A stretch of 34,762 bases of DNA from Acidobacteriota bacterium (GTDB lineage: Bacteria; Acidobacteriota; Thermoanaerobaculia; Multivoradales; JBCCEF01): assembly GCA_039028635.1 (NCBI GenBank), contig JBCCHV010000068.1:1-34762 (forward strand), read 5' to 3'. Below the pieces are notes generated by a model that worked only from the letters and a program-made list of their open reading frames with translations, was not told where the DNA came from and searched no databases. The stretch's first letter is position 1. The number at the start of each line of letters is the position of its first letter. A program made the position numbers and the translations under genes. Below, in pieces: positions 3,785-34,762 of this stretch.

Positions 3785-5143
3785 GTGATTCATCTGACCT
3801 TCGACCGCGGCACCCTGCTGCTGCGGGGCGCGACCGAAGACTCCGCCCTGCCGCAGTGCGTCTTCGATGCCCGGGTCGACGCCTGGCGCGCTCCGGCCTC
3901 GGCCGATCGGCCGATCCTGCGGGCCCTCCACCGCCAGGAAATCGCCTTCACCGACGAGGCCCGGGGCTACCAATCCCTCGACCTCGCGTCGCGCTGGCTG
4001 CGCGAGCCCTTCCCGCATCAGGCGGAGGCCACCGATGCCTGGTGGCGACAGGGCAAGGGTGGCGTGGTGGTGCTGCCGACCGGGTCCGGCAAGACCCACG
4101 TCGCGGTCATGCTGATCGAGCGCCTGGGCCGCAGCTCCCTGGTGGTGACGCCGACCCTCGACCTGATGCGCCAATGGCTGTCGGTGCTGACCACCGCCTT
4201 CGGCCTCGAAGTCGGCCTGATCGGCGGTGGCGAGTACAATCCGCAGCCCCTGACGGTCACCACCTACGACTCGGCTCACCTCCATATGGAGCGCCTCGGA
4301 GACCGCTTCGGCTTCCTGGTCTTCGATGAATGCCACCACCTGCCGAGCCCGTCCTACGCCTTCGCCGCCGAAGCCTCCCTGGCGCCGTTCCGTCTTGGCC
4401 TGACGGCGACACCGGAACGGGAGGACGGCGCCGAGAAACGGTATCGCGACCTCATCGGGCCAATCGCCTACCGCCGTGAGATCGGCGAGCTGGCGGGCAA
4501 GTACCTGGCCGAGTACGAAACCATCACTCTCCTGGTACGCCTCGACGACGAGGAACGGCAGGCCTATCGCGAGGCCCGCGCCGTCTATCGCGACTTCGTC
4601 GCCAGCCAGGGCCTGCGGCTGGGATCACCGCAGGGCTGGAATCGCTTCCTGATGCTGACCTCGCGCAGCGAAGCGGGAAGACGCGCCTTTCTCGCCTACC
4701 GTCAACAGAAGGCCATCGCACAGGCCTCCGAGGGCAAGCTCCGGCTCCTCGCCGAGCTCCTCGAGCGCCACCGCCGCGATCGAGTGCTGATCTTCACCCA
4801 CGACAACGACACCGTGTACCGCATCTCGCGGCGCTTCCTGATCCCCGCCATCACCCATCAGACCAAGGTGCGCGAGCGCCACGACACGCTGACCCGCTTC
4901 AACGCCGGCGATTTGCCATTCGTGGTCACCTCGCGGGTGCTCAACGAAGGCGTCGACGTGCCCGCCGCCAACGTCGGCATCATCCTGTCGGGCACCGGCA
5001 GCGTGCGCGAGCACGTCCAGCGCCTGGGGCGCATCCTGCGCCGCGCCGAGGGCAAGGAGGCAGTGCTCTACGAGGTGGTGACGGAGGACACCGCCGAGAC
5101 CTACGTCAGCCAGCGGCGGCGGCGCCACAGCGCCTATCGCTGA
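3785..5143 (+). CDS. XPB/Rad25-like superfamily 2 DNA helicase
   Basis: A 452-residue SF2 helicase of the XPB type. Motif I is TGSGKT (99-104), motif II DECH (181-184), motif III TATP (207-210), directly followed by the RED triad (212-214) that marks XPB proteins. Motif VI is QRLGRILRR in the last 40 residues. The N-terminal 80 residues resemble the small damage-recognition domain of archaeal XPB. XPB proteins unwind or translocate on DNA in nucleotide excision repair. The GTG at 3785 is preferred because upstream in-frame codons add a low-complexity Arg-rich stretch and family proteins start near this point; the ribosome-binding site is weak. The 3' end overlaps the convergent membrane-protein gene by 10 bases. 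Its archaeal partner Bax1 (DUF790) is encoded 7 kb downstream on the same strand. Confidence 0.9.
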   Translation: MIHLTFDRGTLLLRGATEDSALPQCVFDARVDAWRAPASADRPILRALHRQEIAFTDEARGYQSLDLASRWLREPFPHQAEATDAWWRQGKGGVVVLPTGSGKTHVAVMLIERLGRSSLVVTPTLDLMRQWLSVLTTAFGLEVGLIGGGEYNPQPLTVTTYDSAHLHMERLGDRFGFLVFDECHHLPSPSYAFAAEASLAPFRLGLTATPEREDGAEKRYRDLIGPIAYRREIGELAGKYLAEYETITLLVRLDDEERQAYREARAVYRDFVASQGLRLGSPQGWNRFLMLTSRSEAGRRAFLAYRQQKAIAQASEGKLRLLAELLERHRRDRVLIFTHDNDTVYRISRRFLIPAITHQTKVRERHDTLTRFNAGDLPFVVTSRVLNEGVDVPAANVGIILSGTGSVREHVQRLGRILRRAEGKEAVLYEVVTEDTAETYVSQRRRRHSAYR

Positions 5144-6798
5144 AGCTCGCGGCGGGAGCGCGCCTCGAGGGTCAGAGTAGCCCCCAGGAAGCGCCCGCCG
5201 GGGATCACCTTGCCGCCCTCGATGACGACATCGAGGCGGTAGAACCGCTCGCGACCGAAGGCTACTCGCAGGTCTCGACTGCGCGCTTCGAGGGGCACTT
5301 CGAGTAGCGTGCCGTCGCGTTTGCCGGCGGAATCGAAGCGCACGCGATGAACCTCGTCGCCACCCGCGACGGTCAAGACCGCGCCCGCCGACAGGGCCCT
5401 GGCCTCGAGGACGGCGGCGGCGAGATCGGCCCGGCTGACCAGCCAGATCTCGGCCCGGCGGTCGCCGCGAAGGCGAATCTCGAGCGGCGCCTCGGAAACC
5501 ACTTCGAGGAGCGCGTGGTGCGGCACGAACCAACGACCTCGAGGGGAATCGAAGGCGCGATAGCCCAACCGTTCCGGGGCCTCGAGAGCGGTCAGCTCGA
5601 GAGGCAGCCAGCGCAAGGCCGGCCACGGCTTGGCCGCCGGCAGCAGCACCCCGGCAAGGGCCGGCAGGGTCCACAAGACCGCGGCGACGACCAGCGGCGG
5701 GATCGCCGGCGTCGCGAAACGCCGCGGGAGGAGGAAGATCAGGCAGGGAATACCCGCCACCAAGGACAAGCCGCCATAGGCGCCGCCACCGCCGACCCAA
5801 AGGCCATGCACAAACAACAGCACCAGCACCACCGCCAGGACGCCTCGGCGACCCTCGAAGCGCCCGAAGGGCAAGGCCAGGAGCGCGAAGAGCGCACCGG
5901 GGAAGAGCACGATCCAGCCGAAGTTGCGCCCGGCCAGGCGGAACCAGCTCGCCACCGCCAAGCGGCGAGCATCGCGCGTCGGGGACCGCTCCACTTGCGC
6001 CGCCAGGACCTCGGCATCGGTGTTGGTAAGCGGGAACTGCTGCTCGAAGATCCGCACCGGATCTGCCGAGAAGGCCCAGGTGGCGCCGGGGATGGTGGCC
6101 GCCAGCAGGAGGATCGGCAGTGCCGACAGCAGCGCGCCGATGGCCACCTTGGCGAGCCGATCGCGATGTCTTCGCCGGAGCAGGTCGATCACCGCCGCCA
6201 AGGGCAGGATCAGCACCACCGGCGCGATCACCCCGGCCGCGGCCCAGCCGGCGCCCGCCACCAGCCAGCTTCCGCCCTCCCCCATCCAGACCTTCGTGCC
6301 GTAGAGCAGCAACGCCATCAGCAGGAGATGGGGCTGCGGCAGCCAGGCGAACAGCAGGAGCGCCGAAGCGCCGATGAAGAGCGTCCCGAAGGGGCGGCCG
6401 AGCTCGGCTTCGGCGCTGCGCATCAGCCAGATCAAGAGCAGTCCCTGCAGCAGCACCACGCCGGCACCTCCCAGCAGCCAGTAGAAGGGCAGCATCAGCA
6501 AGGGGTAGGCTGGCGAATCGGCGAAAGAGAGCCGCCCGCCCTCGTCGGCGACGCTCAGGCGAAGCCCCCGCGGCCCGGCGCTCCAGCGCTCGACGGCGCG
6601 CTCGAGATCGTCCGCCTCGTAAACCAGATCACCATCCCAGCGCAGGCTCTCGAGCATCATCCAAGGGGTCCCTTCGGCATCCACCGGAGCCGTCCCGAGG
6701 CGAGCGGGATCGAGGGCGAGAAGCAGGCCGAGAAAGGCCACCAACCACCACCCTCGGGCGCCGAGCCAGCGGCCGGGCGCGGCGCCCGGCGTCGTCAT
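5134..6798 (-). CDS. polytopic membrane protein, GT-C glycosyltransferase-like
   Basis: A 554-residue integral membrane protein with one N-terminal segment (about 16-30), an extracytoplasmic loop of about 60 residues, then eight or more hydrophobic segments to about residue 385 and a soluble C-terminal domain of about 165 residues that looks beta-rich. The first loop holds an acidic cluster (RWDGDLVYEADDLE) followed by LSFADSPAYPLL, the layout of GT-C glycosyltransferases, where acidic residues in the first periplasmic loop bind the metal or act in catalysis. A sugar donor linked to a polyprenyl lipid would be expected. Its ATG overlaps the stop of the sulfatase-like gene (ATGA, 6795-6798), so the two are co-translated and probably act on the same envelope component. 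No family name can be assigned with certainty. Confidence 0.75.
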   Translation of the reverse strand: MTTPGAAPGRWLGARGWWLVAFLGLLLALDPARLGTAPVDAEGTPWMMLESLRWDGDLVYEADDLERAVERWSAGPRGLRLSVADEGGRLSFADSPAYPLLMLPFYWLLGGAGVVLLQGLLLIWLMRSAEAELGRPFGTLFIGASALLLFAWLPQPHLLLMALLLYGTKVWMGEGGSWLVAGAGWAAAGVIAPVVLILPLAAVIDLLRRRHRDRLAKVAIGALLSALPILLLAATIPGATWAFSADPVRIFEQQFPLTNTDAEVLAAQVERSPTRDARRLAVASWFRLAGRNFGWIVLFPGALFALLALPFGRFEGRRGVLAVVLVLLFVHGLWVGGGGAYGGLSLVAGIPCLIFLLPRRFATPAIPPLVVAAVLWTLPALAGVLLPAAKPWPALRWLPLELTALEAPERLGYRAFDSPRGRWFVPHHALLEVVSEAPLEIRLRGDRRAEIWLVSRADLAAAVLEARALSAGAVLTVAGGDEVHRVRFDSAGKRDGTLLEVPLEARSRDLRVAFGRERFYRLDVVIEGGKVIPGGRFLGATLTLEARSRRELQR

Positions 6799-8978
6799 CG
6801 GCCGGCTCCCAGGTAGCCGAGCTGTCGCAGGTTGTCGAGCTGCTCCTGATTGGCCGACGGCACCTTCGACAGGAGCCGGTTGTCAGGTCGCCAGCGCAGC
6901 TCGAGGTACCAGTCCTGGCGGGCCGATTCCTGCTCCGCCAGGCCGGGAACGTCCCGAATCGAGAGGCGGTCCGCCGGCCAGGAGGCGTCTCCCAGCCGGG
7001 CCTCGAGGGCGACCACCTCGCCAACCGAAACCGGCAGAATGATGCCCTTGACCGGTTCACCCCCGGCGATCTCCAGGCGCAACCGGTTGGAATCCACCGT
7101 CACCCGGTCACCGGCCTCCAGGAAGTAGGGCTGCCAGGCGTCGGGCGAGGCTGCCAGCCGCGCCGTCAAGGTCAGCCGCTCGCCCACCGGCAGCGCGTGA
7201 GCGACCAGCTGGAAGCCGGGCAGCTCACCGAGGAGGCGGCGATGAATCGCCGCTTCGAGGCGCGAGGCTGACGGCGAGACGGCGGTCAGAGGGTGCCGTT
7301 CCCGCGGGTCGCGCTCGAGGTCGTAGAGCTCGCGACGCTGCATCCGGCGGCGATCCATCGCCACCACCTCCCCCCAGCGACCATCGCTCGGGTAACGCTC
7401 GGCGTCGCGGTCGAAGAGAATCATCTTGAGACTGCCGAGGGTCGCCATGGCGCGCCGCGGCCCGGCATGGAGATGGCTGGCGAAGGCCAGCCGCGCGGTC
7501 TCCTTCTCGCCGCGCGCGATCGGCAGCAGGCTCTTGCCCTGCCAGTGACGGGGGGCCCTCTCGCCGGCCGCCGCCACCAGAGTGGTGGCGACGTCGAGCA
7601 GCCGCACCTGATCGTCGACCCGCTCGGCCACCGGCAGGCGTCCGTCCCAGCGCAGGATCAGGGGCACCCGCACCAGCTCGTCGTAGAGGGTGCTGGCGTG
7701 ACCCCAACCCTGGTGATCGAGGAGCTCTTCTCCATGGTCGGCGGTGAACACGATCAGGGTGTTCTCGAGCAGGGCCGGCGACAAACCGTCGAGCAGCCGA
7801 CCGATCCAGCGATCCACGTAGGCGATCTCGCTGTCGTAGAGGGCGGAGAGATGGGCCAGATCGGCGACCGGGTCGGCAAGCTCCATGGCGCCCACCCGCA
7901 GCGCCGGGACATCGGCACCGGAGACCTCCCCGCGGTACTCGGGAAAGTACGGCGAGACCCCGCCGTCGAGATCGGGCGGCGTCCAGGGGTCGTGGGGATC
8001 GATGTAGTGGAGGTAGAGAAAGAAGGGCTCGGCGCCGTGAGCGGCGAGCCAACCCTCACCGGCCCGCGAGATGGCCTCCGCCGGCAGCATGGTCGGGCTG
8101 GTGAGCACGGTCTCGAAGCCGCGCGTCAAGCCGCTCGGCGGCCGCAGGATGGGATTGCCCAGAAAGGCCGCCGTGCGATAACCCGCCGCTGCCAGATGCT
8201 CGCTCACCAGGTCGACCTCGTCGGCGACGGTGAAGACCTGCCTCGGACCGCCGAGGAACTCGCCGGGATAGCGACTCGAGAGCAGCGAGGCGACGGAGGG
8301 CGTGGTCCACGGCGCCTGGGCATAGGCGCGCTCGAAGACGACGCCTCGCCGGGCCAACAAGCGATCGATTTCCGGCGTGGTGTCCCGCTCGTAGCCATAG
8401 GAGGTCAGCCGATCCCGGCGCAAGGTGTCGACGACGATCAACAGCAGGTTGGGGCGATCCGGGCTCGCCGGCGGCGGCGGTCCCAGGGTGACCGGCGACC
8501 AGGCCACCGTCGCCTGGCTCTCGAGCCGGGCGAGGAACTCGAGCTCGACGCGGCGCCCGGCGTGGTCCGAGAGATCGATGACGCGATCCTGCCAGGAATG
8601 GTGGGACTCCAGGCGAAGGGTCTCGAGTACCTCGACTCGGGACCCCCAGCGCAGCCGGACCACCGCCCGACCGCTGGCCGAGGCATGGACCCCGAAGGCC
8701 AACCGCCCGTTCTCCGGAATGCGCCCGCGCCAGCTCCAGGAACCAACGGTCACCCAGGCTTGCCGCTGTTCTCCGCCGACCTCGACGGCCTCGAGACGAA
8801 CCGCCGACGCGAAAGAGAAGGGGCCGGCGAGGGCCGCGTCCGGCGACCAGCGATCGGCGGCGAAACCGAGCGCCGGATCCGAGCAGCCGGCAAGGGCCAG
8901 GGCGGCGACGCAGGTCGCGAGGACCGCCGCCAGCCTGTGGTAGAAGGGCCCCAAGGGGCGGAACCGATGGGTCGTCAC
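6795..8978 (-). CDS. sulfatase-fold lipoprotein with Thr in place of the sulfatase Cys/Ser
   Basis: A 727-residue lipoprotein of the alkaline phosphatase/sulfatase superfamily. The signal peptide ends in lipobox LAGC (Cys32). A beta-type domain spans about 40-165, the sulfatase domain about 175-480, and a C-terminal region with beta character follows. Metal-site residues are visible: Asp184 in IVVDTLRRDR, Asp414-His415 in FTADHGEE, and His427. The formylglycine motif C/S-x-P-x-R is replaced by Thr225-Thr-Pro-Ser-Val229, so neither the modifiable residue nor the Arg is present. Thr nucleophiles occur in the related phosphoethanolamine and lipoteichoic acid transferases, so a phosphotransferase or phosphodiesterase activity is more likely than sulfatase activity (inference). 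The GTG at 8978 is chosen because it places the lipobox correctly; the open frame to 9530 is Gln/Arg-rich antisense sequence. Confidence 0.85.
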   Translation of the reverse strand: MTTHRFRPLGPFYHRLAAVLATCVAALALAGCSDPALGFAADRWSPDAALAGPFSFASAVRLEAVEVGGEQRQAWVTVGSWSWRGRIPENGRLAFGVHASASGRAVVRLRWGSRVEVLETLRLESHHSWQDRVIDLSDHAGRRVELEFLARLESQATVAWSPVTLGPPPPASPDRPNLLLIVVDTLRRDRLTSYGYERDTTPEIDRLLARRGVVFERAYAQAPWTTPSVASLLSSRYPGEFLGGPRQVFTVADEVDLVSEHLAAAGYRTAAFLGNPILRPPSGLTRGFETVLTSPTMLPAEAISRAGEGWLAAHGAEPFFLYLHYIDPHDPWTPPDLDGGVSPYFPEYRGEVSGADVPALRVGAMELADPVADLAHLSALYDSEIAYVDRWIGRLLDGLSPALLENTLIVFTADHGEELLDHQGWGHASTLYDELVRVPLILRWDGRLPVAERVDDQVRLLDVATTLVAAAGERAPRHWQGKSLLPIARGEKETARLAFASHLHAGPRRAMATLGSLKMILFDRDAERYPSDGRWGEVVAMDRRRMQRRELYDLERDPRERHPLTAVSPSASRLEAAIHRRLLGELPGFQLVAHALPVGERLTLTARLAASPDAWQPYFLEAGDRVTVDSNRLRLEIAGGEPVKGIILPVSVGEVVALEARLGDASWPADRLSIRDVPGLAEQESARQDWYLELRWRPDNRLLSKVPSANQEQLDNLRQLGYLGAGR

Positions 8979-24619: not shown

Positions 24620-24714
24620 TAGAATCTGAGTGCGCGAAGCTCAATTAAGTGCCTCGCACTCACACTTTCATTCCGGGGCAGCTTTGCGAAGCTGCGGATG
24701 CTGAGGAGGAGCGG
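24620..24714 (+). promoter_or_regulatory. promoter and structured leader of the dnaJ-like/clpB unit
   Basis: TAGAAT (24620-24625) is a possible -10. Downstream are two inverted repeats: TGAGTGCG with CGCACTCA (24627-24634 and 24655-24662, 20-base loop) and a perfect 7-bp hairpin with a 4-base loop (24678-24684 with 24689-24695). The second hairpin ends 7 bases before the GAGGAGGA ribosome-binding site (24703-24710). The arms are in the opposite order to a CIRCE element. Operator or temperature-sensitive RNA roles are possible for a heat-shock unit. Confidence 0.4.
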
Positions 24715-25668
24715 GTGGAATTCAAAGACTATTACGCGACCCTGGGGGTCTCGAAGACGGCCTCCGCGGACGAGATTCAAAAGGCCTACCGCAAGCTGGC
24801 CCGGAAATACCACCCGGACATCAACAAGGAGGCCGCCGCGGAAGCCCGCTTCAAGGATATCGGCGAGGCCTACGAGGTGCTCAAGGACCCCGAAAAACGC
24901 CAGCGCTACGACAACTTCGGGGCCGATTGGAGTCGCACCGGGCAGGGCCCGACGGGCAATCCCCCGCCGGGCTGGGAGCACATCTTCGATCTCGGTGGAC
25001 AGGGCTTCGGATTCGGTGGCGCGACCAGCGGCGGCGCCGCCGCCGGCGACTTCAGCTCGTTCTTCGAATCCCTCTTCGGATCCGCCGGGCCGCGGTCGCG
25101 GCGCGCCGCCGGGCGCCCCGGCAAGGGCCGCGACGTCGAAGCCAGTCTCAGCCTGAGTCTCGAAGAAGCGGCGCGCGGCGGGGCCCGCGAGGTCACCTTG
25201 CGGGATCCGCAGACCGGCGCCCGTCAGACCCTCTCGGTCAACCTGCCGGCGGGGGTCAAGCCCGGTCAGCGGGTGCGCCTTGCCGGCAAGGGAGACCCGG
25301 GAGCCGGCGGCGGCCCGGCCGGAGACTTGCTGCTCAAAGTCCAAGTGCCGCCTCACGCCAGGTTCCGACTCGATGGCAACCACCTCCACACCACCGTCGA
25401 GGTGACCCCTTGGGAGGCCGCCCTCGGCGCTCCCGTAGAGATCAGCACCCTCGACTCGAAGGTGCGGGTCAAGATCCCGCGCGGCTCGTCGTCGGGCCGC
25501 AAGATACGCCTCGCCGGCAAAGGGTTTCCGAGCAAGAACGGAACCGCCGGCGACCTTTTCGCCGAGCTCTCGATCGTGGTTCCCAACGCCGACGAGCTGA
25601 CCGAAAAGGAAGCCGAGCTGCTCGAAGAGCTCGGCCGAATCTCGAGCTTTACGCCCCGCGGCGCCTAG
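24715..25668 (+). CDS. DnaJ/CbpA-type co-chaperone (no zinc finger)
   Basis: A 317-residue class II J-domain protein. The J domain is residues 4-70 with the HPD motif at 33-35, followed by a Gly/Phe-rich linker (about 80-130) and the C-terminal client-binding domains from about 140 ([18 protein letters not shown] onward). The Cys-rich zinc-finger of DnaJ itself is absent, so it corresponds to CbpA or the DnaJ2 proteins often found beside clpB. It stimulates DnaK ATPase and hands aggregates to DnaK and ClpB. The GTG at 24715 starts the product at [12 protein letters not shown], and GAGGAGGA is 4 bases upstream; a longer reading from 24649 has no family match. It is 37 bases ahead of clpB and probably co-transcribed. 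No heat-shock sigma or CIRCE sequence was recognised. Confidence 0.94.
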
Positions 25669-25705: not shown

Positions 25706-28333
<2,628 letters not shown>

Positions 28334-28383: not shown

Positions 28384-29799
28384 CTACTCTTTGGACCGCG
28401 CCGGTAAATAGATCGCGAGCGGGCAGATCGGAGGTCCGACCCGCGCCAGGCGCTCGAGGATTTCCTCCGCCTTCTGCTCCTTGGGCATCGCTTGGAGCTC
28501 GGTGAGCCCGGCATAGTACAGGCGCGTACTTGCGCTTCCCCCGGTGCCTCCGACGCACGAGGCTTGGCAGCCCTGGGGCTCTATGTAGCAGTGCTTGCTG
28601 CAAGCCATCGCAAGCGCTGCCTTCAACCCTCCTTCGAGGATCTTTGGAGACGTGTAGCCGCCGGGAACATTGGCGTAGGGATTGAATCCTTCCAGCAAGT
28701 CGAGGTCGCGAAGTCCCCCGAAGTCGAAATCCACACTCGCCGTGCTCGCCGTGCTCGCCGCGGCGTGCCGGTGCCCCAGAACTACTTCCCGAGGATCATC
28801 CAAGCCCAGCGGGAACCGAGGCGATTCGAAGCGCTCGACAAGACTGGGATCGAGCCAGTGTTTCTGGTGCTGACACAGGCCTGCCGATTCGGCGATCAGG
28901 GTGTACTTCGGGTCCTCCAGGGAGAGCTTCGGCGGCTCGAAGAAGGTCCGACAGGAGAGCGGGAAACCGGCATCCGCATCGCTTTCGCTGACCTGCGGCA
29001 TGCCCCGACGGGCACCGTTGTCGAGCAGTTGCCAGTACTCCACCAGATGGTGAGACAGCGTCGTGTGCGCGGCGCCCGAAGAGCCCAACCAGGCTTTGAT
29101 CGTCGCATCGAGATCGATCGGCAAATGCATCAGCGCGATTCGCACTTCGCCGGCCTGGTCCGGCACCAGATGGATCGTCTGCTCGACCTCGGAATCCATC
29201 TTGGACAGCTTGACGGTCACCCGATCACCCGGCAGCTCGACCTCGAAGATCGCCCCGTTGGCGAGAAATTGAGAGTGAGCCACCTCCGGCGGATGGAAAG
29301 TGAAGGAGTGTTGAGTGGCCATTCCGGAAGCGTCTCCATGCTCCCCGACCAAACCACAGGGAACCACCCAGTCGAAGGAGAACTGTCCCCGAGCCGTCAC
29401 CAGGTCGGCACTCGGTACGGCGAGCAGAGCCGATTCGGTGATCGCCGCCTCGGCGTTCAACAACACGGGCAGGCTCAGGAGGTGGCCCTGGCTATGCCAG
29501 ATAGGAACCGACTTCTTGGCTCGTTCCCCCACCACGTCGACGTCTTCGCGCTCGAGCCGGCGCAAGCAGACGCCCTCGTCTTTCCAAGCGACCTGGCTGT
29601 CGTCACAGGCAACGTCGACTGTTGGATCGAGATCGCCATGCCGAAACGCGAACAGAGCTTCGTGATGGGGCACGCTGCCCCCGATGTGGCCGACATGGGA
29701 CTCGACCTCGGGAAAAATCAGCGTCACTTCATCGCTTCCCGGCTGAGTCACCACTGCCAAGAGGCCACTCACCAGGATCTTCAGGGTTATTCCGGTCAC
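28384..29799 (-). CDS. hypothetical secreted protein, Cys-rich C-terminal part
   Basis: I do not recognise this 471-residue protein. A short hydrophobic N-terminus (ITLKILVSGLLAVVTQ) looks like a signal peptide. The body is rich in His, Asp and Glu with beta-strand-like stretches (ATQHSFTFHPPE, GAIFEVELPGDRVTVKLS), and near residue 405-420 there is a Cys cluster C-x3-C-x6-C-x3-C (ACSKHCYIEPQGCQASC). A low-complexity ASTASTAS run is encoded by a 9-base tandem repeat (about 28737-28763). The start is taken as the GTG at 29799, 4 bases after GGAGGT; the GTG at 29805 abuts that site and is too close. GC content looks lower than in the neighbouring genes, by eye. It lies downstream of the CHAT gene in the same direction, but a terminator-like hairpin separates them. 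Confidence 0.7.
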   Translation of the reverse strand: MTGITLKILVSGLLAVVTQPGSDEVTLIFPEVESHVGHIGGSVPHHEALFAFRHGDLDPTVDVACDDSQVAWKDEGVCLRRLEREDVDVVGERAKKSVPIWHSQGHLLSLPVLLNAEAAITESALLAVPSADLVTARGQFSFDWVVPCGLVGEHGDASGMATQHSFTFHPPEVAHSQFLANGAIFEVELPGDRVTVKLSKMDSEVEQTIHLVPDQAGEVRIALMHLPIDLDATIKAWLGSSGAAHTTLSHHLVEYWQLLDNGARRGMPQVSESDADAGFPLSCRTFFEPPKLSLEDPKYTLIAESAGLCQHQKHWLDPSLVERFESPRFPLGLDDPREVVLGHRHAAASTASTASVDFDFGGLRDLDLLEGFNPYANVPGGYTSPKILEGGLKAALAMACSKHCYIEPQGCQASCVGGTGGSASTRLYYAGLTELQAMPKEQKAEEILERLARVGPPICPLAIYLPARSKE

Positions 29800-29826
29800 T
29801 TTCACCTCCGCACGGACAATCTTCGA

Positions 29827-29872
29827 AAAACTGCTTCCACTGCCCTGAAGATCGGACAGCGGGAGCAGTTTT
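29827..29872 (-). terminator. terminator downstream of the CHAT gene
   Basis: A 12-bp stem with one G-T pair (29827-29838 with 29861-29872, 22-base loop) lies in the 131-base gap between the CHAT gene and the unknown secreted protein. On the minus strand the stem ends in a run of T, so it can serve as an intrinsic terminator for the CHAT transcript. Confidence 0.6.
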
Positions 29873-29930
29873 CATCATCCGGCGGTGCGCTCTTGGCCGC
29901 AGGACATCCGTCCCGCGGGGGGCCGTCGGC

Positions 29931-32906
29931 TCACCCGCTGCCGAGAACCTGGAAGGCCGCCCAGACCTTCACCCACGAGGCTCCCCCGCTGCGCTCCCGA
30001 AGACGATTCAAGGTTTCGACCTGAGCCGTCTGAAGGGCCTCGGCCGGCCCCTTGTCCGCGAGCTGGTGATGGAACGTGGCCATCATCTTGAGAGTCTCGC
30101 GATCGTCAACCCTCCATTGACTCGACACCACCGAGTGACTGCCGCTGAGCAAAAAGGGCCAGGCCAAGCTGATCGTGCCCTCGCCGGCAGTGACCTCGCC
30201 GACAGCCGTCTCGCAGGCCGATAGGACGACGATGTCGAACTCGATTCCCGAGGAGTCGAGCAGGCGGGCCACGCTCACCGGATCCGCGGCAAGACGCGGG
30301 TCGGCCGAGGCCAGCAAGAGGCGGGAGGCGAGAGGTCGATCCTTGCTCGCCTGGCCGTGGGAGGCGACGTGCAGCAACCGCGACCCTGCACCTGCGGCCA
30401 CCAGGTTGTCAAAGCTGGCCTGATCGCCCAGCAGAGGCCGGCCACCATAGACGGCGGCAATCAGACGCGCTTCGTCCTCGGCGAACTCGAGCCGCCCCAG
30501 GGCATGCTCCTCGGAACCCGCGAATGCCATCACCAAGGCTTCCTCGATGCGGGATGATCGGCGGTCGAGGCGTTGCTGCAACTGCGAGTAAACGACAGCG
30601 CTCGGGCTCACCACCAGGGCGACCTCTTCGATCAGGAAGCGTTCGCCGAGAAGCGCGGCGAAGGGAACCTGGTAGAGGTTGCCGTCGGGCACGATCACCA
30701 ACCGCTCCAGATCGGCGAGCTCGACCTGGTCGAGCCACGGCGCGATCAGAGCCTTATGGAGCTGGCGCAGCCGCGGCAGGACGTGCTCCTCCTCGGCGCG
30801 CGGGTTCTCGATTCGGCGCCGCAGCTCGAGAATGGTCGCCTCGAGATCCGTCGCCCCCTGGCCCGCGCTCAGCAGCTTGGTGCGCAGTCCTCCGGCGTCG
30901 AGCCACCAGCCATAGAGTCGCCGATCGCCCCCAGCTCCCAACCAGTGGAAGCTCAGGACCGCCGTTGCCGGCGGCAGCTCGATCTCGCGGGGCGAATCGA
31001 GCTCCCCGAAAGCGCGCAGGAGGACCTGTCCGCGGCCCGATTCGCTGAACTCGAATGCGCCCTGGTCCGGGGAGTCTTCCAACGCTCCCTGCACCAGCCC
31101 GTCGTAGATCGGTCGGGCACGACGAGCCCAGAAAGCGATGTCAATCGGGCTGGCGAGCCTGTCGGCCTGTTCCTCGACCTGCTTACGGGCCTGCTCGAAT
31201 TGCTCCATCGCCAGGTCGAGATCGCCAGCCCGCAGAAAGGCCCAACCCAGCGCGGCCTGCTCGAAGGGAACTTCCTCGAACATCTGCCTCGCCTGCAGCA
31301 GACTCAATCGCTCGCCGCGGTGCTCGATCTCTTCCTCCGGCGACTCGGCGAAGGCCGCCACCATCCCGAGCTCCTGCAGGCGAACCGCATCGCGGAGGGC
31401 GTCGCCGCCGATGCGTTCGGCCGCCCTGCGGCGCTCTGCCTCGAGGTCCCGCGCCATCTCCCGTTGGCCACCTCGAAACAGAACCTTCTGCAGGTCGGCA
31501 TAGCCGTCCTGGACAAGCAGCTCATCGCTGCTCTCGAGAGCGATCGTGACCGCTTCGCCCTGAACCTCGATCGCCGCCCGCCGCAGTCCCGCCGCCGAGG
31601 CCACTCGCTCCGCGGCTTCGATCACCCGAAAGTGACTCTTGAAGGTCAGCTCGTCGAAGGTCACCCCCCAGGCCGCGGCCAGTGACTCCCAGGCTCCCGG
31701 CAGATCCTGCAGAAATTCACCCCGGACGATCGCCAGCGACGCCTCCTGATCGGCGAGGCCGCCGCCATCGCCGATCTCCTGCGCCAGCCGGCCCGCGGCC
31801 CGCAAGAAGCCAACGCCGGCCGACAGATCGCCGAGGTCCCGCTCCACCAGACCGCGGAGACGCAAGGCCAAAATCCCGACCCGCCCATCATCGGCGCTGC
31901 TCTGCCATGAACTCAGCCCCGCCAAGGTTTCCCCGTGATGCCAGCGCAGGTAGTTCCACAGGGCGCGGTAGTAGGTCAGCCACGGCTCCAGGGGCAGGTC
32001 GAGGCGCGCGATATCGCGCTCCAGCAGCGGTATCAGCTCGCTGGCCCGCTCGACCTTCCGCGGGTGGGTCAGGAGGGCCCCTTCGAACTCAATCCACCGC
32101 GAGATGGCCTCAGCGGCCCGGTCGTTGGAGCTTCTCAGGTGGTCGGCCAGGGCCACCATCGAGGCGTTCCCCGGCACAGCCCGGGAAGCGGTCTCGAACA
32201 CCGACAGAGCCTCGCGACCGGCAGCGCCCGTCGGTGCTTGGCTCCAGGCTTGGAGGGCGAGATCGGCGACCCGTAACGCCAGACTCGGAGCGACCGCAAG
32301 ATCTGCCTCGAGAGCACCTCGGCGCCAGTTCTCGAGTAGCTCAGGCCACTCGGCGGAAAGGGCCGCTCGGGGCGGTTGCTGATCTTTCTCGGCCAGCCAC
32401 TGGGCGGCCTCGTCGCCGAATCGGCCATCGTCGAGGAGTCCCTGCCAGCGCCGGCGAGCCTGGCGAGTCAAACCGAGCTGGCCTGCGATCACCGCCCGAT
32501 TGCGCTCAAAGAGTGGCTCCTCCGGAAGGGCCAACGCCAGGTCGAGAGATCGAAAGGCATCGGCGATCGATTCGCGATGGAGGAAGCGCGCCCACAGGGC
32601 GACCGAGGCCGCGTTCATGGTCCCGGGATCGACGGCCCCGGCCTCGATCTCGTCGAGTAGAGCCGCAACCTCGCGCTCCGGGAAAGCGCCCGCTGCGAAG
32701 CTCTGGCCGCGCAACAAGCTGCCATCGGCTGGATCCGAGGGAAGTTGGCGGGTGGCGTCCGTCAAAAGGGGCAGGGTTCCCTTTTGGCGTTCCAGCCAGG
32801 CGCGTAAATCCCGCAGATCGTCGGACGCCTTGTTTTCACCACAACTGAGAGCCGACAACAGCAAGATCGAGCCGAACACCACCCAGCCAAAGGATCGCTC
32901 CTTCAT
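29931..32906 (-). CDS. TPR-CHAT protein, caspase-like predicted protease, exported
   Basis: A 991-residue protein. The N-terminus is a signal or lipoprotein sequence (VVFGSILLLSALSC, Cys22; the lipobox is atypical). Residues about 60-640 are alpha-helical with TPR-like repeats (for example EIGDGGGLADQEASLA and LGWAFLRAGDLDLAMEQFEQARK). The CHAT domain covers about 700-990 with the caspase-type dyad His850 (LHVASHGQ) and Cys898 (VVLSACETAVG), and the family ending SLAWPFLLSGSHSVVSSQW, VWAAFQVLG. CHAT proteins include separase-like and CRISPR- or gasdermin-linked proteases; both catalytic residues are intact here. GAGGAG lies 5 bases upstream of the ATG. It diverges from a sigma/anti-sigma pair across 369 bases. 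A role in envelope signalling by cleaving a partner protein is inference from domain and context. Confidence 0.92.
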   Translation of the reverse strand: MKERSFGWVVFGSILLLSALSCGENKASDDLRDLRAWLERQKGTLPLLTDATRQLPSDPADGSLLRGQSFAAGAFPEREVAALLDEIEAGAVDPGTMNAASVALWARFLHRESIADAFRSLDLALALPEEPLFERNRAVIAGQLGLTRQARRRWQGLLDDGRFGDEAAQWLAEKDQQPPRAALSAEWPELLENWRRGALEADLAVAPSLALRVADLALQAWSQAPTGAAGREALSVFETASRAVPGNASMVALADHLRSSNDRAAEAISRWIEFEGALLTHPRKVERASELIPLLERDIARLDLPLEPWLTYYRALWNYLRWHHGETLAGLSSWQSSADDGRVGILALRLRGLVERDLGDLSAGVGFLRAAGRLAQEIGDGGGLADQEASLAIVRGEFLQDLPGAWESLAAAWGVTFDELTFKSHFRVIEAAERVASAAGLRRAAIEVQGEAVTIALESSDELLVQDGYADLQKVLFRGGQREMARDLEAERRRAAERIGGDALRDAVRLQELGMVAAFAESPEEEIEHRGERLSLLQARQMFEEVPFEQAALGWAFLRAGDLDLAMEQFEQARKQVEEQADRLASPIDIAFWARRARPIYDGLVQGALEDSPDQGAFEFSESGRGQVLLRAFGELDSPREIELPPATAVLSFHWLGAGGDRRLYGWWLDAGGLRTKLLSAGQGATDLEATILELRRRIENPRAEEEHVLPRLRQLHKALIAPWLDQVELADLERLVIVPDGNLYQVPFAALLGERFLIEEVALVVSPSAVVYSQLQQRLDRRSSRIEEALVMAFAGSEEHALGRLEFAEDEARLIAAVYGGRPLLGDQASFDNLVAAGAGSRLLHVASHGQASKDRPLASRLLLASADPRLAADPVSVARLLDSSGIEFDIVVLSACETAVGEVTAGEGTISLAWPFLLSGSHSVVSSQWRVDDRETLKMMATFHHQLADKGPAEALQTAQVETLNRLRERSGGASWVKVWAAFQVLGSG

Positions 32907-33275
32907 GATTTCTCCTCAAACTTCAAGCTCCGCAACGCGGGGAAATTGCCATCGGTCACGCTCTTCGAGCCCACTGCGGGATCCTCCCATCGACCGACTT
33001 ACTGCCTCTCCCAAAGCAAGACGGACTCCGGTCGCGTCCTTTGAAGCCCGCGCCGGCGCGGCTTCCAGCTCAGAGGCGACTCGCCACCCGGGACCGGTAC
33101 CACCCGGCATGTGGCCACGATCAAAGGTCTTTCCTCGGAAGCCAAGAACTTTAGAGAGGTATAATGCACCTCTATATCCTCATCAAGGGAAAAGGCTTTC
33201 AATGTAGGTCTTTCGAGAGATTTCGATGGTCGCTGGAAGGCCCGGCGAAAGGCGCCGACCAGCCTGGGAGGTTCT
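32907..33275. promoter_or_regulatory. divergent regulatory region between CHAT and sigma factor genes
   Basis: This 369-base gap has no gene I can support. A perfect TATAAT (33160-33165) lies within a dyad AGAGGT-N7-ACCTCT (33155-33173), about 110 bases before the sigma factor start, in the AT-richest part of the gap. No good -35 for a housekeeping sigma is visible at 16-18 bases. This could be the promoter and operator of the sigma gene, possibly autoregulated. I do not see a clear promoter for the CHAT gene in the left half. Confidence 0.5.
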
Positions 33276-34130
33276 TTGCGGGCAGCTCAGCTTTACGAGG
33301 AGCATTTCGAACGCATCGAGCGGAGTATCCGCCTCAATCTGGCGCGCCATGGCATCCGCGGCGCCGATCGAGACGACTATTACCAGGATGTTCACTTTTT
33401 CCTCATCGAGGATGAATATCGTCGCGTCGCTGCCTTTCGCGCCGAGAGCAGCTTCGGAGGCTTCATCGATCAGGTGGTCCGCGCCCTGGTGCGAGATCTC
33501 ATCCGGCGACAGAATGGTCGCCTCAACCGCTCGTCCGCCGCCGCTCAGCGGGCCGGTCTGACGGCCATCGAGCTGGAGCATCTGCGGCGCCAAGGTATGT
33601 CCGAGGAGGAGGCGACCCGACGGCTCCTCGATGAAGGATGTCGCAAATCGCGCCAAGAGCTCGCCGAGCTCTGGCTCGAGACCCGAGACCAGGCGCGACG
33701 GCAACTCGTGCCGGACGACCTCCTGGACAGCCATCCGGCTCCCGGTCGCCGACCGGGTGAGACGCCCGAAACCGAGCTCGAGGTCCGTCGGCAGCGCTTC
33801 GAGACCATTCTGCAGGGCATTCTGAGCATCCTCACCGGCGTCGACCTGCTGTTCGCTCAGCTGGTCTTTCGAGGAGTCCGGGTCACCGATATCGCCCCTA
33901 TGGTGGGCGAAGATCGGACCCGCCTCTACCCCAAGCGCCGCCGCCTCTTGGACCGGCTGCGCAAAGCCTGCGAAGATGAAGGGCTGAGTTGGGATCAGCT
34001 CACCGAGGTCGCGGACTGGCCGGGCCTCTATTTCGACCTCGAGGCGGACGAGCTGCCGAGGCCGCCATCGGCAGCTCGCGGGGAGTCGTCGACAAAGACA
34101 CAAAATTTCCAGCGCCGTCCGACTTCTTAA
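33276..34130 (+). CDS. ECF-like RNA polymerase sigma factor
   Basis: A 284-residue sigma-70 family protein. Region 2 is about residues 1-75: an N-terminal YEEHFERIERSIRLNLARHG helix, DRDDYYQDVHFFL (core-binding region 2.2) and FRAESSFGGFIDQVVRALVRDLIRR (2.3-2.4, -10 recognition). A long linker rich in charged helices (about 80-175) exceeds that of typical ECF factors. Region 4 is weaker: the helix-turn-helix-like part VRVTDIAPMVGEDRTRLYPKRRRLLDRLRK is near 205-235. The C-terminal tail adds about 45 residues. The TTG at 33276 is taken as start because GGGAGG is 4 bases upstream and no other start precedes region 2. A zinc-finger anti-sigma gene follows 14 bases later. Family placement is good; the subgroup is unclear. 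Confidence 0.82.
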   Translation: MRAAQLYEEHFERIERSIRLNLARHGIRGADRDDYYQDVHFFLIEDEYRRVAAFRAESSFGGFIDQVVRALVRDLIRRQNGRLNRSSAAAQRAGLTAIELEHLRRQGMSEEEATRRLLDEGCRKSRQELAELWLETRDQARRQLVPDDLLDSHPAPGRRPGETPETELEVRRQRFETILQGILSILTGVDLLFAQLVFRGVRVTDIAPMVGEDRTRLYPKRRRLLDRLRKACEDEGLSWDQLTEVADWPGLYFDLEADELPRPPSAARGESSTKTQNFQRRPTS

Positions 34131-34144
34131 GCGTAGAGCCGAAA

Positions 34145-34762
34145 ATGAATACCGCCCAACCAGATCAACCAGCGCCCTGCCTCGATGCCCAGGATCTCGC
34201 TGCCTTCGTCGAAGGGCGCCTGCCGCAGGATCGGCACCAAGCCGCGATTCGGCACCTGACGGCCTGCGAGGAGTGCCGCGAGGCGGTCGCCGACGGTGCC
34301 CTGCTGGCTCGCGAGATAACGACCGAAGAGTCAGGCCAAGAGGCACCTCCAGCCGCCCCAGCGACTTTCCCCACCGCCGTCCCAGCGCGCCCGGAACGCA
34401 AGAGCCCAGGCACCCTACGCTGGGCCTTGGGGCTGGCCGCCGCGGCGGCCCTCGCCGTCGTTGTGCTGCTGCCTCAGCGGGGTCTGACCAGGACCGACGA
34501 CTGGGTGAGCTGGATCGAGCCCGGCACAGCGATCGAGCTCGGCGATCCGGAGGTCTCCCGAACGCGAGGAACAGCCCTCGATCAGAGCTCCTTTCTGGTC
34601 GGAGTTCACTTGGTGCGACTGGCGGCCGCCGAGCGCACCGGCGACCCGGAGCAGGCGGCCATCGCCCATCGCGACCTGCTGCAGGCCCTTATTCGCGACC
34701 GATCGGCGGACGAGCTGCCAAAGAGCGTCGCCGAAGTCGAGGCCTACCTCGCCTCCCTCGAC
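34145..34762 (+). CDS. zf-HC2 membrane anti-sigma factor, partial at window end
   Basis: At least 206 residues, open at the right edge. The N-terminal zinc-binding anti-sigma domain contains H37-x3-C41-x2-C44 (RHLTACEECREAV) in a helix that follows DLAAFVEGRLP, the ZAS/zf-HC2 pattern. A Pro/Ala-rich linker leads to one membrane segment (about 92-110, LRWALGLAAAAALAVVVLLP). The extracytoplasmic part beyond it is helical (SFLVGVHLVRLAAAERTGDPEQAAIAH) and could be the sensor. The protein would bind the sigma factor at the membrane and release it on a signal, often by proteolysis. It is co-directional with the sigma gene, 14 bases away; the ribosome-binding site is weak. The C-terminus and any catalytic or sensory domain lie outside the window. 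Confidence 0.85.
   Translation, partial: MNTAQPDQPAPCLDAQDLAAFVEGRLPQDRHQAAIRHLTACEECREAVADGALLAREITTEESGQEAPPAAPATFPTAVPARPERKSPGTLRWALGLAAAAALAVVVLLPQRGLTRTDDWVSWIEPGTAIELGDPEVSRTRGTALDQSSFLVGVHLVRLAAAERTGDPEQAAIAHRDLLQALIRDRSADELPKSVAEVEAYLASLD

Follow-up and report, generated by a model that had tools for sequence, protein, structure and literature searches.

The CHAT, sigma factor and anti-sigma factor genes

The window analysed here is the whole of contig JBCCHV010000068.1 (C68) from an Acidobacteriota bacterium (assembly GCA_039028635.1), 34,762 nt in length, and the genes in question lie at its right end. Three genes were confirmed there: a gene on the minus strand (29931..32906) for a 991-aa, probably exported TPR-like/CHAT lipoprotein, identified by PF12770, an AlphaFold2 model and a match to the anti-sigma factor DdvA, and, divergent from it on the plus strand, genes for an atypical sigma factor of the extracytoplasmic function (ECF)-like type with a TTG start (33276..34130; TIGR02937, family alignment and PDB sigma factors) and for a membrane anti-sigma factor (34145..34762; zf-HC2 and alignment with 20 relatives), which meets the contig end and is cut there at its 3′ end. 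A reading of the sequence alone (the original prediction) had proposed this divergent order, together with a TPR-CHAT protein bearing an intact catalytic dyad and an export signal, an unusually long linker in the sigma factor, a zinc-finger membrane anti-sigma and a dyad-bearing gap. The coordinates of the open reading frames bore out the gene order, and the claims about the dyad, the export signal, the linker and the anti-sigma held as well. The gap fared less well. In the 369-bp divergent intergenic region between the CHAT and sigma genes (32907..33275) an inverted repeat with 9-nt arms was present (33152-33176), but it was equalled in 113 of 300 shuffled sequences; as this is chance level, the repeat was dropped as a candidate operator. 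No consensus promoter, promoter-like or terminator-like site was found in this gap, and a lone TATAAT occurs at 33160.

The CHAT caspase-like domain occupies residues 712-990 (29937..30773, minus strand) and matched PF12770 with E=5.8e-53 (180.6 bits against a cut-off of 24). Its predicted catalytic residues, His850 within HVASHG (codon 30357..30359) and Cys898 within LSACE (codon 30213..30215), align with the family dyad. We aligned 84 of the 85 CHAT frames from the window's own genome and a sample of its order; 83 rows carried a letter at the two sites, and histidine and cysteine were kept in all 83. Residues 1-22 (32841..32906, minus strand) form a signal sequence with a lipobox, LSALSC (Cys22), by a crude pattern and hydrophobicity test, which found an export signal in 61 of the 85 CHAT frames and which, in like form, was passed by 7 of 164 interior control stretches. 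The N-terminus is therefore likely to be a lipoprotein signal, and because of it a cytoplasmic location of the protein is unlikely. Pfam TPR matches fell below the cut-off, yet the AlphaFold2 model, built from a 14-row alignment (predicted local distance difference test score (pLDDT) 79.9; predicted template modelling score (pTM) 0.78), showed a long helical solenoid followed by a CHAT fold. The TPR-like solenoid spans approximately residues 77-632 (31011..32678, minus strand) by the secondary structure of the model, and TPR proteins were among its fold matches. A defence-system reading was set aside after PADLOC returned only two BovA models on the CHAT part (E 7e-4 and 3e-3).

The sigma factor matched TIGR02937 with E=1.2e-5 (25 bits, where the cut-off is 42.9), and a Pfam scan of this protein alone gave no match. 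Pfam region 2 and region 4_2 were found at E<=1 in 10/14 and 11/14 members of its family, respectively, and the family could be aligned with FliA and ECF sigma factors whose structures are in the PDB. The long linker between sigma2 and sigma4 (approximately 33516..33770, plus strand) is conserved across the family alignment as RPSaxAxRLG..LExLxRDG..EA. In the PDB profile search this linker aligned partly with FliA, and it might be a remnant of sigma3.

The anti-sigma carries a ZAS/zf-HC2 zinc-binding domain with the HxxxCxxC motif HLTACEEC (34196..34279, plus strand) and, by hydropathy, a single transmembrane helix (approximately 34415..34471), with a further portion of the protein beyond it. 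The zf-HC2 match was below the cut-off in the window protein (E=8e-4, 19.8 bits against 22.2) and reached 30.6 bits in its relative L198. To judge from gene order, this protein would bind the neighbouring sigma factor.

CHAT genes lie close to sigma and anti-sigma genes

The original prediction had coupled the CHAT protein to the sigma/anti-sigma pair, and we therefore examined the surroundings of CHAT domains in the same genome and in its order. The genome contains 25 CHAT stretches by PF12770, 24 of them above the cut-off, 107 sigma matches to TIGR02937 at E<=0.01, fragments included, and 25 zf-HC2 matches. A sigma match lay within 5 kb of 16 of the 25 CHAT stretches, against 16.5% of the genome (about 4 expected, p=1.3e-7); when only sigma matches above the cut-off were counted, the figure was 10/25 against 12.9% (p=6e-4). 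For zf-HC2, a match was that near in 11 of the 25 stretches, against 3.8% of the genome (p=7e-10). The usual layout in this genome, as seen with a purpose-made gene caller, was a sigma gene, an anti-sigma with one transmembrane helix and an exported CHAT protein on one strand, with variants.

Similar results were obtained across the order, where the window CHAT protein was matched in at least 42 of 72 genomes, its own included. From 143 listed rows (own genome left out), of which 100 started above 6000, 60 CHAT loci were drawn at random, a sample that leans towards CHAT domains like that of the window. A sigma match was found within 5 kb in 40 of these 60 loci and in 1 of 20 random loci (Fisher p=9e-7); among the CHAT loci with full flanks the count was 36/51. 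In the 40 linked loci the sigma gene was upstream on the same strand in 18, downstream on the same strand in 9, divergent in 5 and convergent in 8. When these were combined with 15 linked loci of the own genome, the gene after the sigma encoded a separate transmembrane protein in 39 of 55 loci (a raw count of 41 included L037 and L165, taken as the CHAT frame itself), and HxxxCxxC was present in 30/55.

Gene neighbourhoods were also read from the side of the sigma factor, the check that had been put forward with the original prediction. The sigma family of the window had 51 matches in 29 of the 72 genomes, and CHAT was found within 5 kb in 9 of 48 order loci, the window included, the flank on one side being shorter than 5 kb in 20 of the 48. 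In named species genomes a scan yielded 52 loci, 17 duplicating the order set and 35 new; CHAT lay within 5 kb in 12 of the 30 new loci confirmed as family members, four of them from Gemmatimonadetes/Gemmatimonadaceae/Gemmatimonadota (L202, L207, L214, L218) and eight from Acidobacteria/Acidobacteriota/Thermoanaerobaculia. For this family the partnership with CHAT recurs in two phyla and is not the rule, and the CHAT-linked members were scattered in the family tree. The proposed coupling thus stood in part, as linkage across genome and order, divergent pairs, fusions and likeness to DdvA, but not as a general property of these sigma factors, most of which have no CHAT neighbour. Of the two findings that the original prediction had named as refuting it, a cytoplasmic CHAT protein is unlikely, and on the rarity of CHAT near homologs of the pair the outcome was mixed. 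When the CHAT protein of the window was used to search the named genomes, five stretches fitted a pattern, none of them a relative.

The divergent arrangement of the window was found again in five relatives (L072, L089, L094, L106 and L113), whose full-length CHAT frames measure 1062-1168 aa, that of L113 reaching the end of its stretch; divergent pairs occur in further genera. A sixth divergent relative, L108, has its CHAT part (433 aa) in one reading frame and 689 aa in another that overlaps it. These L108 frames, 5235-7304 and 4121-5422 on the minus strand (L198), may be two genes or reflect a frameshift or an assembly error.

Anti-sigma and CHAT parts are fused in related bacteria

In 7 of the 12 CHAT-linked loci of the named genomes a single frame of about 1100 aa stood directly behind the window-family sigma gene and combined, in this order by Pfam, a zinc finger, a transmembrane segment, TPR and CHAT, with zf-HC2 below the cut-off in L220, L226 and L229. 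We searched the fusion L220 against 396 genomes of the phylum, with at most two candidates scored per genome, and 82 genomes matched at E<=1e-25. We read 20 loci with long matches. They included five more distinct zinc-finger fusions (L250, L251, L255, L257 and L258; zf-HC2 below the cut-off in L251), with the sigma gene directly upstream in all except L257, and two duplicates of named-genome fusions (L254, L256); eight of the 20 had no N-terminal part before the transmembrane segment. Five further frames (L260, L261, L262, L264 and L265) carried a different N-terminal part, without HxxxCxxC, before the transmembrane segment. Three fusions of this L260 type sit directly behind a sigma gene; when three frames of the type were scanned, a weak zf-HC2 match came up in L260 alone.

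The catalytic dyad was intact in 7 of the 12 distinct zinc-finger fusions and in all five of the other type. In a quick tree of CHAT domains the zinc-finger fusions did not form one clade, with weak support and long branches meeting. By a test for HxxxCxxC plus a transmembrane segment, no fusion was present among the 85 CHAT frames from this genome and the sampled order loci, and the split form therefore seems to be the rule in this order. Six anti-sigmas of the family, from stretches that contained no CHAT gene (L210, L213, L219, L222, L228 and L233), have a C-terminal TPR-like stretch, NRALAL...W..YL...W, resembling one found where the TPR part begins in the fusions.

Comparison with DdvA and other known systems

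DdvA is the anti-sigma factor of the ECF sigma factor DdvS in Myxococcus xanthus, and its inactivation leaves DdvS active (PMC4374960); its signal was not known in 2015. With Foldseek the best matches of the window CHAT model were two DdvA entries (PDB 8ROT/8RW5; residues 55-989, E=2.4e-14), and VIA-align placed model residues 55-989 on residues 107-991 of 8rw5 with Z=23.1 over 792 aligned residues, so that solenoid and CHAT were matched over nearly the whole window protein. VIA-align with separase gave Z of about 21-26. The two top fold matches of a fusion model (pLDDT 82.9, pTM 0.70) were also DdvA. A profile of the window, split and fused proteins reached DdvA by sequence as well, the zinc-finger part included, with E=1.2e-38, a match in which the first domain has a strong composition bias; HLADCEKC, ATHG and LAAC of DdvA were seen in the profile alignment. 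A profile was required for this, as a single-sequence search of the PDB with fusion L220 gave no match. Both systems have a membrane anti-sigma, which in DdvA restrains an ECF sigma (PMC4374960). The difference is that DdvA is one chain, whereas the window has separate, divergently transcribed genes and a CHAT protein with its own lipobox. Because zinc finger, transmembrane segment and TPR-CHAT are not in one chain, we describe the window module as working like DdvA and not as a member of its class.

In the type III-E CRISPR system (Craspase) Csx29 relieves the inhibition of CASP-sigma by Csx30, and a TPR-CHAT protease there controls an ECF sigma through the inhibitor of that sigma (PMC10028731). 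Craspase is, however, RNA-guided with Cas7-11, whereas the window CHAT protein carries an export signal. The NCBIfam Csx29 model gave 35.7 bits on this protein against a cut-off of 300, and no match to RAMPs (PF03787) was found in the own genome, which is about 95% complete, although a diverged Cas7-11 could escape such a search; on these two results a Craspase/CRISPR reading is disfavoured. CHAT also occurs in the conserved gene context of the ECF54 group, for which proteolytic control and no anti-sigma are proposed (PMC8999054); the window, in contrast, has a zinc-finger anti-sigma. Besides ECF54 and Csx29, no link between a CHAT gene and sigma control, and no CHAT gene of the separate exported kind, was seen in the open-licence literature searched. 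Systems of the RseA/DegS/RseP type, which PMC10028731 also mentions, share with the window a membrane anti-sigma and a possible first cut outside, and the own genome has two matches to M50 (site-2 type) proteases; they differ in using a DegS-like protease where the window has a CHAT lipoprotein. A CHAT-bearing anti-sigma (DdvA), CHAT near ECF54 and, in Craspase, a sigma inhibitor on which a TPR-CHAT protease acts are thus already known. The separate, exported, multi-copy version and fusions without the dyad were not met in the open-licence literature searched.

Other features of the window

On the 3′ side of the CHAT gene long open frames occur on both strands, one at 28384-29805 (minus) overlapping another at 28492-30024 (plus). 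For the former, of 473 aa, none of 71 further genomes in the order yielded a relative at E<=1e-5, and it was dropped as a candidate partner. Also near the CHAT gene, on the plus strand, are a DnaJ-type chaperone by Pfam (24649-25668) and, by eye, a ClpB-like disaggregase (25706-28333). A phasin-like protein with a histone HC2-like tail is encoded at 1821-2543 on the minus strand.

Discussion

Since the CHAT protein is fused to the anti-sigma in related bacteria, the CHAT, sigma and anti-sigma genes probably form one circuit that leads from an envelope signal to gene expression. Our preferred reading, to which we give a probability of roughly 0.55, is that the locus is a split envelope-signalling module of the DdvA type, in which the sensor and protease half is a free exported lipoprotein that would act in trans. 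The solenoid of the lipoprotein would bind an envelope signal or partner, and the CHAT domain would then act on the part of the anti-sigma that lies outside the membrane, cleavage being the simplest possibility; a site-2 protease, for which the two M50 matches are candidates, would finish the release of the sigma factor together with cytoplasmic proteases. DdvA and the fused relatives would be the same device in cis, the window its form in trans. The more specific proposal that regulated destruction of the anti-sigma starts with a cut in trans by this free caspase-like lipoprotein, and that many parallel copies make up a periplasmic caspase network that sets transcription, is offered more tentatively, as possible and short of probable.

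Several results weigh against the split-module reading. CHAT was absent within 5 kb from 39 of the 48 order loci of the family sigma and from 18 of the 30 further loci, and a sigma copy from the same genus had no CHAT in the 17 kb read. Of the two sigma profiles used in the order test, one was built from 14 sigmas of own-genome CHAT stretches. The window anti-sigma is incomplete, because the window ends at the contig end. By Z alone Csx29 (about 31, up to 31.6, over approximately 500-570 residues with a large root mean square deviation) outranks DdvA. An export signal was found in 16/20 unlinked CHAT genes of relatives and in 28/40 linked ones, so that export is not special to the module. Both His and Cys were lost in five zinc-finger fusions (L216, L232, L255, L257 and L258), all of family f39.

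Foremost among the alternatives, though unlikely, is that the CHAT lipoprotein is an output, transcribed by the sigma factor and acting on other envelope substrates with no role in sensing. Neighbours of ECF sigma genes are, as general knowledge has it, often in their regulon, the layouts vary (27 on the same strand and 13 on the opposite strand among 40), and the equal frequency of export in unlinked CHAT proteins fits this explanation too. The anti-sigma fused to TPR-CHAT, together with DdvA, instead puts the CHAT part on the control side.

Less probable again is control of the anti-sigma without proteolysis, the CHAT protein binding a ligand and, as a partner of the anti-sigma, holding or releasing its outside part. 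The f39 fusions favour it: catalysis is not needed in these natural pseudoproteases, and they argue for forms in which binding suffices. DdvA is not known to be cleaved. Conservation of the dyad in 83/83 rows is, however, difficult to reconcile with a domain whose sole function is binding, and seven of the twelve zinc-finger fusions keep it as well, which argues for catalysis in those proteins. A chance neighbourhood of unrelated genes, suggested by the abundance of CHAT (25) and sigma (107) matches, by the same-genus sigma and by the majority of family members that have no CHAT, is very improbable in view of the genome-wide and order-wide enrichment and the recurrent divergent pairs.

The split-module reading would link a large class of caspase-like proteins that bacteria export to the control of sigma factors, and DdvA, an anti-sigma whose structure is solved, would gain a counterpart in split form. 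Fusions with an intact dyad and fusions that lack it offer a natural test of how a CHAT domain signals, through cleavage or through binding. Should cleavage be demonstrated, control of sigma factors by TPR-CHAT proteases would prove to be a more general principle, with Csx29-Csx30 as a single instance of it.

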